Source of the DNA: Verrucomicrobiota bacterium
Lineage (GTDB): Bacteria > Verrucomicrobiota > Verrucomicrobiia > Chthoniobacterales > Xiphinematobacteraceae
DNA length: 64,000 nt
Direction of reading: 5' to 3'
Assembly: GCA_023269545.1 (NCBI GenBank)
Contig: JAHFTB010000004.1
Span: forward strand, 1 to 64,000
A program made the position numbers and the translations under genes. How positions within the stretch are numbered: position 1 is the stretch's first letter; each line of letters begins with the position of its first letter. Below are positions 54,596 to 60,333 of the stretch, in pieces. The notes under the pieces were generated by a model. That model saw nothing but the letters and a program-made list of their open reading frames with translations, had not been told where the DNA came from and did not search any database.

Positions 54596-55237
54596 ATGAT
54601 TGCCGTGAGTTTTTCCGTTCCTTTTGAAAATCCCGGCCTGAAGGAAGAAAGGAGTCTTCGGATATGGCTTCTTGGAGTTGGGGGCTCCGCTGCAAATCCC
54701 GCCCTTGCGGCATACCTTTCTCGGGAACAGCCCCGACTCTTAATTGTTTCAGGATTTGCGGGAGCACTTCATCCTCAAATCCGGATTGGAGAAACTTTTC
54801 TTTGCAAAAATATGTCCGATCCGGATGCAATTGGGACTCTTATGGAAAAAGGTTGGATTTCTCCGCCAAGTGCGACTCTTTATACTAGCAAAGAGCTTAT
54901 TGCCACGGCATGCGGAAAAGCTGATTTATATCAATCCACTGGCAGCGATCTGGTGGATATGGAAACTCAGTCCTTATTTGAGACGGCCAGATTTCATTCT
55001 ATTCCTGTGATTACTATTCGGGCTGTCAGCGATACGGCCGCGACGGATTTTCCAGTACCTGAGCCCATTCTTTACGACAAGCACCATCAGTGCCCTCGGC
55101 CCATGGCGCTTTGCGCATATCTCGCGATGCATCCCCAACGGATTCCTCAATTTATCCGTATGCTGAGGCAGCTTTCCCAAGCTCGCACTCAACTTGGAAG
55201 ACATCTTCGAATGCTCTTGAAAGCCGCTGCCCGGTAG
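54596..55237 (+). CDS. Nucleoside phosphorylase/nucleosidase-fold protein (MTAN-like)
   Basis: A 213-residue protein of the purine nucleoside phosphorylase superfamily. The GVGGSAANPALAAYL motif and the DLVDMETQSLFETA (M-E-T with the ribose-binding Glu) and AVSDTAATDFP (catalytic Asp) fit 5'-methylthioadenosine/SAH nucleosidase and hopanoid-associated phosphorylase (HpnG) relatives. It is shorter at the N terminus than most MTANs. No hopanoid or menaquinone-futalosine genes are adjacent to help choose. Confidence 0.75.
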   Translation: MIAVSFSVPFENPGLKEERSLRIWLLGVGGSAANPALAAYLSREQPRLLIVSGFAGALHPQIRIGETFLCKNMSDPDAIGTLMEKGWISPPSATLYTSKELIATACGKADLYQSTGSDLVDMETQSLFETARFHSIPVITIRAVSDTAATDFPVPEPILYDKHHQCPRPMALCAYLAMHPQRIPQFIRMLRQLSQARTQLGRHLRMLLKAAAR

Positions 55238-58533: not shown

Positions 58534-60267
58534 CTAGATCACTTTCAAAGCGGTTGAAATATCCCAATCGGCAGATTCTAATTTTTTTAATGCTTCAGAT
58601 TCGGAGATTTGGAGAGTTTCGCTTAAAATCCGTACAGCTCGCTGTCGTAATTTCCGGTTGCTGGGATGCAGATAAGCCATGGAATTATCTCGAACCCGGC
58701 CGAGGCGGATCATGACTCCTGTGGAGAGAATATTCAGGGCGACTTTGGTAGCGGTACCTGCCTTGAGTCGAGTAGATCCGGCGAGCAACTCCGGTCCGGT
58801 CAGCAAGCGTATTTCAATATCGGGTCCTGGAGGCATGGGCTGCTTTGTACAGGTAATCAAAAGAGAAAATGCACCGATGCGACGGGCTTCATGAATGGCT
58901 CCCCAGGCAAAGGGTGTAGTTCCACTGGCAGTAATTGCGCACACCACATCCTTCGAAGTCAGTTTTTTCTCCCGTAGAGCCTCAATCGCCAATTTTTCAT
59001 CATCCTCTTTTGCTTCGGCACTTTGAATTAAGGCATCCACCCCTCCAGCAAGAATACTTTGTATCCTATCGGGGGAAACCCCAAAGGTCGGAGGTATTTC
59101 CGCTGCATCGAGTACGCCCAATCGGCCACTGGTTCCTGCCCCCACATAAAAGAGACGACCTTTCGCAAAAATTTTTTGGGAAATCGCATCTATCGCGCAC
59201 GACAAAGAGTCCACAGCTCCTTGAAGAGCTTCTTGGACGCAGGCTTCTTCGTCCACAAAGAGTTGGACAAGCCTAGGGGTGGAGAATGCTTCCCATCCTT
59301 GGGAGCGCGGATTTTTTTCCTCCGTGGAGGCAAGTGAAGAAGAGTTCGGGGCAGCGGTGGTTGGTATCGAAGAAACGTCTTTGTTTTGCAATGCGAACCA
59401 TGCCGCACCTTCGACGCCTGGTTCGCGACTCAATTCCACTTGTGCGCCGGGCAGATGGCGAGACAAGGCTTCTCGAAATAGCTCCACATATTCAGGATGA
59501 TGGGTGAAGATTCCTCCCATGAGGCGAATGTGCGGGCGTTCTTCCTTCAATCGATTGGCAACCGCGTGACAGCAGCCGGCTAATAGGCTTGCCCCGGAAG
59601 CAAGTACCGCTTGTATTTCGGGATCGGCTTTATGAGTGAAGAGTACGGATGTCAGTTCGGCCAAATCGGATTTCTCGGCTTGTTCCGCCCATTCTGTTAA
59701 TTCTCGGACGGAGGTAATTTTTAATTTTTCCAAGATGGATTTAAGAAAAGGAGAAATGGTGCGTTCCAGATCAAACTGCCGCAGGGCTTCCCGTAAGGCT
59801 TGCACACTGAGTGCAAATCCGCTGCCAGGGTCTCCCAGCAATTTTCCCCATCCGGCGGCTATTTCGATCTGCTTTCCTTTTTTTCCGGTGACCGCCGAAC
59901 CGGTGCCTGCGATGACTAAAATTCCTTCCTTTTCTCGAAATGCCGCACGAAATCCGGAATCTCGATCACTCCCTACCACAATACGAACAGAGGGCCAAAT
60001 CTCTTGGCAGAGAGTTTTGAGCGCTGTTTGGTCTTGATCGGTAGCGCAGCCCGCCAAAAAGATTCCCACAATGCCACAATTCTTGGGCAAGCTAGAAAGT
60101 AGGGCGCGCCTACTGGCAAGGGGAAGGGCTTTCCAATTGCCACATCCCAGAATTCCTTCATTTATTATGAGTTTTCCTTCGCCTTTATGAAGCTGATACA
60201 TTCTCCAATGAGTGCGGGTTGCCCCCCCTTCCACAGCTAATAAAAGAAGTTCCTTGGAGTTGCTCAT
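58534..60267 (-). CDS. murQ: N-acetylglucosamine kinase-like domain fused to N-acetylmuramic acid 6-phosphate etherase (MurQ)
   Basis: A 577-residue fusion. Residues about 1-295 form a BadF/BcrA-type sugar kinase (VEGGATRTHWRM, GIVGIFLAGCATDQDQ, AGTGSAVTGKKG and GDPGSGFALS, the phosphate-1, connect and adenosine motifs). Residues about 320-577 form MurQ: FYVGAGTSGRLGVLDAAEIPPTFG with the catalytic Glu, AITASGTTPFA, and RLKAGTATKVALNILSTG. A C-terminal helical tail (SESEALKKLESADW) ends it. Together they would phosphorylate an amino sugar and cleave the lactyl ether of MurNAc-6-P for wall recycling. Start 60267 has AGGA seven bases upstream. Confidence 0.93.
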   Translation of the reverse strand: MSNSKELLLLAVEGGATRTHWRMYQLHKGEGKLIINEGILGCGNWKALPLASRRALLSSLPKNCGIVGIFLAGCATDQDQTALKTLCQEIWPSVRIVVGSDRDSGFRAAFREKEGILVIAGTGSAVTGKKGKQIEIAAGWGKLLGDPGSGFALSVQALREALRQFDLERTISPFLKSILEKLKITSVRELTEWAEQAEKSDLAELTSVLFTHKADPEIQAVLASGASLLAGCCHAVANRLKEERPHIRLMGGIFTHHPEYVELFREALSRHLPGAQVELSREPGVEGAAWFALQNKDVSSIPTTAAPNSSSLASTEEKNPRSQGWEAFSTPRLVQLFVDEEACVQEALQGAVDSLSCAIDAISQKIFAKGRLFYVGAGTSGRLGVLDAAEIPPTFGVSPDRIQSILAGGVDALIQSAEAKEDDEKLAIEALREKKLTSKDVVCAITASGTTPFAWGAIHEARRIGAFSLLITCTKQPMPPGPDIEIRLLTGPELLAGSTRLKAGTATKVALNILSTGVMIRLGRVRDNSMAYLHPSNRKLRQRAVRILSETLQISESEALKKLESADWDISTALKVI

Positions 60268-60333
60268 AAGATTCCTACATAATATAGCAAAGTTGACATT
60301 ACTATATCTCACTTTTTATAAAATGTAGGATAA

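Follow-up and report, generated by a model that had tools for sequence, protein, structure and literature searches.

The minus-strand gene described here, found in a window of 64,000 nucleotides (the whole stretch of DNA analysed), most probably encodes a bifunctional peptidoglycan-sugar salvage enzyme, in which a MurK-type kinase is joined to a MurQ etherase; both activities are predicted, and we put the probability of this reading at roughly 0.77. In the proposed mechanism, the N-terminal MurK-type half would use ATP to phosphorylate the 6-OH of free MurNAc, yielding MurNAc-6-P, and probably phosphorylates GlcNAc too, and the C-terminal MurQ half would convert MurNAc-6-P into GlcNAc-6-P and D-lactate. 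Were the kinase to act on both sugars, MurNAc and GlcNAc would converge on GlcNAc-6-P. As GlcNAc phosphorylation yields GlcNAc-6-P, which is no MurQ substrate, channelling could apply to the MurNAc branch alone. Phosphorylation of MurNAc and removal of lactate, usually the work of two separate proteins, are probably united in one. Joining the halves covalently may make for a higher local concentration, or may do no more than fix stoichiometry and co-expression. We infer the two activities, the acceptance of both sugars, how the fusion arose and any benefit of having the active sites close together.

The single-chain architecture appears to be new; each of the two enzymes, and their pairing in operons, was known already. 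Our search, which was confined to the open-licence literature, found no description of a kinase-MurQ fusion, and none appears in the accessible portions of PMC10465942, PMC13046382, PMC4432640, PMC5790795, PMC13041923 and PMC6506613. What would such a protein offer? It would give those Verrucomicrobia for which the AnmK search found nothing a way to phosphorylate MurNAc, it predicts the function of adjacent unfused kinase genes in other phyla, and it is a single protein in which to examine whether flux gains from the union of two successive salvage enzymes.

Reading frame, conservation and distribution

The fusion ORF (Table 1) runs on the minus strand from an ATG at 60267 to a stop codon ending at 58534, 577 codons without an internal stop. 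An AGGA lies a few bases 5' of the ATG, and an alternative GTG start at 60312 would give 592 residues. The sequence-only reading had proposed that a BadF-type kinase precedes MurQ in one chain, and this single ORF, with its matches to Pfam BcrAD_BadFG and to NCBIfam MurQ models, upholds that claim. The gene is flanked on one side by a minus-strand double ABC ATPase gene and on the other by a divergent gene for NAD-dependent DNA ligase; neither of these direct neighbours is a gene of peptidoglycan recycling. Elsewhere in the window (54596-55234), a 213-aa ORF encodes a divergent phosphorylase-family protein, whose best PNP_UDP_1 stretch covers residues 110-150 (model positions 162-202 of 233).

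Table 1. Features of the predicted kinase-etherase gene, in window coordinates
Feature	Coordinates	Strand	Residues, motifs and basis
Fusion gene: MurNAc/GlcNAc kinase - linker - MurNAc-6-P etherase (predicted)	58534..60267	-	577 aa; Pfam/NCBIfam matches, congener ORF
Kinase part	59380..60246	-	about residues 8-296; Pfam match, alignment; VIA-align Z 32.6 to 8zo3
Linker	59326..59379	-	about residues 297-314; length differs between relatives (alignment)
MurQ part	58537..59325	-	about residues 315-577; NCBIfam match, alignment; VIA-align Z 20.1 to 4s12
Kinase motifs			G14-T17, catalytic Asp101, GTGS 121-124, AGWG 138-141, Asp146, GG 251-252
MurQ motifs			GAGTSG 376-381, D387/E390, E418/E421, GSTRLKAGTATK 497-508

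Could the frame be an assembly artefact in which a sequencing error has merged two genes, or a pseudogene in a lineage of reduced genomes? Such a view could draw on two congeners whose genomes measure about 0.9 Mb, in which a genome search did not find the fusion gene, and on the window's copy, whose end branch in the MurQ tree (1.0) is the longest among the fused rows. We give it practically no weight: the fusion is present as one frame in 48 of 147 genomes searched in the order, the window's and a congener's included, its conserved columns show few deviations, and its dN/dS is low. In that congener (genome G306, locus L134, 73% complete) the single frame is 70% identical to the window's. Between the two, NG86 estimates of dN and dS are 0.22 and 2.04 for the kinase, 0.20 and 1.75 for MurQ and 1.0 and 2.1 for the linker, and the resulting dN/dS values of about 0.11, 0.12 and about 0.48, respectively, are rough, given that dS is near saturation and the linker comprises 16 codons. 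The linker is the fastest-evolving part, and both the kinase and the MurQ halves are under purifying selection. The congener's single ORF and the dN/dS of about 0.11 in both domains thus speak against the frameshift between two separate genes that the earlier reading had allowed for; by these comparisons the fusion is real and conserved, and the recurring single frame together with the dN/dS refutes an artefact or decay as far as sequence allows.

The 48 genomes of the order comprise 44 in which the fusion was recovered as one alignment and four (G304, G411, G420, G424) in which it was recovered as two, with the same frame length. Seven other genomes of the order matched: in G367 the kinase and MurQ are separate frames and lie on different contigs, G326 has MurQ alone, and the remaining five gave weaker kinase-like or MurQ-like matches. 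Across the phylum Verrucomicrobiota, the fusion is found in 21 of 288 genomes, three of these cases (L021, L022, L026) having been recognised only once the frames were aligned, and other genomes there have a separate MurQ. The surmise that such fusions occur in related taxa is borne out by these counts. Frames of about 550-630 aa in G034, G022 and G070, for example, match the MurQ half twice (about 355-526 and 500-565), which suggests that other classes of the phylum have double-SIS proteins resembling GKRP.

We also scanned loci in species genomes of all phyla, using a full-length alignment of 11 fused proteins as the query and patterns derived from MurQ. The scan figures refer to the best 80 loci and are not an exhaustive count of fusions outside Verrucomicrobiota; these loci include at least 14 single-ORF fusions, all Verrucomicrobiota by title, among which we take the Spartobacteria and Puniceicoccaceae titles to belong to that phylum. 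One fused locus, L102, is cut by a contig end inside MurQ. A separate kinase frame lies directly upstream of murQ at 16 of the best 80 loci (from Bacillota, Poribacteria, Eremiobacteria, Pseudomonadota, Bacteroidota, Hydrogenedentota, Chloroflexota and Armatimonadota), and at three the kinase is nearby. At 47 of the 80 the profile detected none near murQ, and these loci count against the MurK-MurQ reading; some loci stop at the end of their contig, where an adjoining kinase may escape notice.

The two halves and their pathway setting

The kinase half matches Pfam BcrAD_BadFG over residues 72-288 (51.7 bits, cut-off 31.5), and a Pfam search of the fusion protein gave no match to the AnmK family, PF03702. 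All 13 fused members scanned match NCBIfam MurQ models, and the sole kinase model that they match is the GlcNAc kinase equivalog NagK_SO3507; as the window's protein falls far below the cut-off of that model (56.2 bits versus 370), annotation would probably name the fusions MurQ alone and miss the kinase half. A profile of nine fused kinases found its best match in Clostridium acetobutylicum MurK (8zo3, entitled MurK of C. acetobutylicum with GlcNAc; E 6e-53, nearly full length), with lower matches to Sulfolobus tokodaii hexokinase (1e-46), human NAGK (3e-22) and the Tannerella forsythia kinases (1e-12 to 3e-11). By VIA-align, 8zo3 ranks first (Z 32.6, 288 residues, 2.4 A), followed by the S. 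tokodaii hexokinase 2e2o (Z 30.3); by Foldseek E-value, 2e2o comes first and 8zo3 third. For this half, for which the earlier reading had considered both GlcNAc and MurNAc, domain search and kinase comparison point to C. acetobutylicum MurK as the nearest relative and leave the NagK_SO3507 cut-off unreached. Asp101, Gly121, Gly123 and Gly141 are invariant in 68 of 68 kinase sequences, the window's included, and Asp146 is present in 65 of 68, so that the catalytic columns are intact, contrary to the inactive kinase motifs that the earlier reading had named as a refutation. The window's kinase departs from columns conserved in at least 90% of 67 others at two places, neither of them a named catalytic residue.

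Which sugar would this half accept? According to the accessible part of PMC10465942, T. forsythia MurK needs small residues at S133-P134-L135 for MurNAc, a site at which human NagK has Gly145, and requires for the same sugar that T94, not Asn, precede the catalytic Asp. The corresponding residues in the window, matched by hand from the alignment, are A138-G139-W140 and S100-D101, and A138-G139-W140 with S100 would fit the lactyl group by this rule. C. acetobutylicum MurK shows the limits of the rule: Asn precedes its catalytic Asp, and it nonetheless takes both MurNAc and GlcNAc, with a slight preference for GlcNAc (accessible text of PMC5790795). That preference would suit another reading, unlikely in our judgement yet deserving serious attention, in which the kinase half acts chiefly on GlcNAc, or on a broad range of hexoses, and the fusion joins enzymes that converge on GlcNAc-6-P, MurNAc-6-P being supplied from elsewhere. 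The rank of the S. tokodaii hexokinase, second by VIA-align Z and first by Foldseek E-value, leans the same way, as does the Arg that six fused kinases (L013-L017, L019) share with it at the position of the window's Trp140. The fit of S100 and A138-G139 to the lactyl group by the published T. forsythia criterion, in the part of the source available, argues instead for MurNAc, and no other source of MurNAc-6-P was found in the genome. In five of those six kinases the residue preceding the catalytic Asp is Asn, and in L015 it is Asp; the six may differ from the window's clade in the sugars they accept.

At 98.4% completeness and in 59 contigs, the assembly of the window's genome may lack a gene. 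AnmK (PF03702) was found in none of 41 genomes, the window's and 40 others (21 fused, 20 not), and the same search gave matches in 5 of 14 control genomes, E. coli among them. The only PTS EIIC found in the window's genome is of the fructose type. With no AnmK and no other EIIC, the fused kinase, the only candidate found for making MurNAc-6-P in this genome, is its likeliest source, and PTS-independent phosphorylation of MurNAc, as the sequence-only reading had suggested, would be the natural interpretation. The genome further encodes one SLT lytic-transglycosylase domain, one NagZ-like GH3 enzyme (196.8 bits, narrowly below its cut-off, 207) and one ROK kinase, which could serve GlcNAc; AmpG gave no match. 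NagA was not found in it, the only match being a fragment to a TRZ/ATZ-type hydrolase, nor was NagB, the sole Glucosamine_iso protein being a 6-phosphogluconolactonase, so that the known onward route from GlcNAc-6-P is missing there. These gaps, like the presence of the ROK kinase, count against the MurK-MurQ reading. Among 37 fused genomes, NagA scores above the curated cut-off in 13, gives strong matches below it in 17 (in four of them, G217, G265, G321 and G352, stops interrupt the match) and yields fragments or nothing in seven (the window's genome G000, G039, G048, G306, G327, G320 and G291). A more speculative proposal, on which we would not wager much, is a two-step funnel that would bring both wall sugars to GlcNAc-6-P in a lineage without AnmK, AmpG, NagA or NagB, the product being used undeacetylated, for example by a mutase feeding GlcNAc-1-P straight into UDP-GlcNAc. 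If true, it would be an unrecognised NagA-free route of wall-sugar salvage.

The MurQ half matches the NCBIfam MurQ subfamily NF003915 over residues 312-575 (313.8 bits, cut-off 168) and exceeds the cut-off of the MurQ model NF009222 (278.2 bits, cut-off 255); the MurQ equivalog model TIGR00274 scores below its own (281.1 bits, cut-off 302), which counts against the MurK-MurQ reading. By VIA-align it superposes on Yersinia enterocolitica MurQ 4s12 over 245 residues (Z 20.1). GKRP, a relative of MurQ, regulates glucokinase in animals, and the SIS half could by analogy be a sugar-phosphate sensor that regulates the kinase to which it is covalently tied, rather than a working etherase. Its match to Pfam GKRP_SIS_N over residues 358-459 (55.9 bits, cut-off 27) is in keeping with that idea, which we nevertheless hold to be very improbable. 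The second-domain model of GKRP reaches 20.5 bits against a cut-off of 27, on the stretch of the first SIS model, so that the two SIS domains of GKRP are not seen; the NF003915 cut-off is passed by a wide margin; and Gly376, Asp387, Glu390, Glu418, Glu421, Ser498, Arg500 and Lys508 are invariant in 106 of 106 MurQ sequences, fused and separate, the window's included. The columns of Glu390, Glu418 and Glu421 hold the two glutamates that we take to be the catalytic residues of MurQ, and Ser498 and Lys508 are presumably residues of its sugar-phosphate site. The window's MurQ departs from columns conserved in at least 90% of 105 others at three places, none of them a named catalytic residue.

Two features of this half were considered and set aside. 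Thr in place of Arg in the ASGRTP motif was rejected as a sign of decay, being present in 22 of 106 sequences, the window's included, and kept in the congener. Relative to the median separate MurQ, the half stops about 28 residues short, and a short tail (at most 22 residues) is found in 26 of 31 other fused proteins; loss of the tail was rejected as a mark of fusion, since 20 of 74 separate frames also lack it (separate L081 is cut by a contig end) and five of the 31 keep more.

An AlphaFold model of the fusion, built with 13 sequences (mean pLDDT 79, pTM 0.52), is confident for the kinase half but not for how the domains are arranged. In this monomer model pLDDT falls below 50 in several MurQ-half loops and at residues 297-316, the disordered linker. 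As to the channelling that the sequence-only reading proposed, the sequence itself shows covalent linkage through a variable linker, which argues against a single precise interface between kinase and MurQ.

Origin of the fusion

The fusion probably came about when murK and murQ, lying side by side in an ancestor that belonged to Verrucomicrobiota, were joined. Of 20 adjacent kinase-then-murQ pairs (16 from the best 80 loci of the scan and four from the phylum search), seven share a reading frame and are separated by just one stop codon. The kinase tree gathers 30 of the 33 fused kinases into a single clade (100/99.8); L021, L022 and L026 stand apart, beside Bacillota kinases of which two adjoin murQ (support of only 80). 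A single fused clade appears in 0% of 200 bootstrap trees and is not rejected by the AU test (p 0.074; 65 rows, leaving out the long L106, L047, L062 and L081 and the duplicates L001, L033, L051 and L123). In the MurQ tree, which was tested with 90 rows after removal of 20 loci (duplicates, long rows and near copies), the fused label needs three changes (AU p 0.061); L021, L022 and L026 group with the unfused MurQ L020 (support 99), which is of the same family as two of them, and L018 also stands apart from the other fused rows. Two or more fusion events are likely, though the AU values fall short of proof. L021, L022 and L026 are kinase-MurQ fusions with a full-length MurQ tail that fall outside the main fused clade in both trees, and are possibly an independent fusion.

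Comparison with known systems

How does the predicted kinase-etherase compare with what is known? The E. coli AnmK-MurQ route likewise ends with MurQ, but starts from an anhydroMurNAc kinase of another family, one that the search found in none of 41 genomes. Residues 310-577 can be aligned with the greater part of MurQ in solved structures (4s12, 4lzj, 1nri), with invariant catalytic columns, and differ from separate MurQ proteins in sitting behind a kinase and in their shorter C-terminal end. The closest solved relative of the kinase half by profile E-value and Z, C. acetobutylicum MurK, shares its fold over the whole half, the catalytic Asp and the GWG motif. It is, however, a stand-alone chain of 306 residues, 24% identical to the window's kinase in the structural alignment, with Asn where the window has Ser before the catalytic Asp, GDEGSG where the window has GDPGSG, and G where the window has A before GWG; the last two differences weigh against the MurK-MurQ reading. 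According to PMC5790795, T. forsythia MurT together with MurK rescued an E. coli murP mutant. In T. forsythia, MurK and MurQ are separate neighbours and the MurNAc-specific kinase is only distantly related to the fused one; in the accessible parts of PMC5790795 and PMC10465942, the murTKQ operon nevertheless performs, without a PTS, the same two sequential steps that we predict for the single chain.
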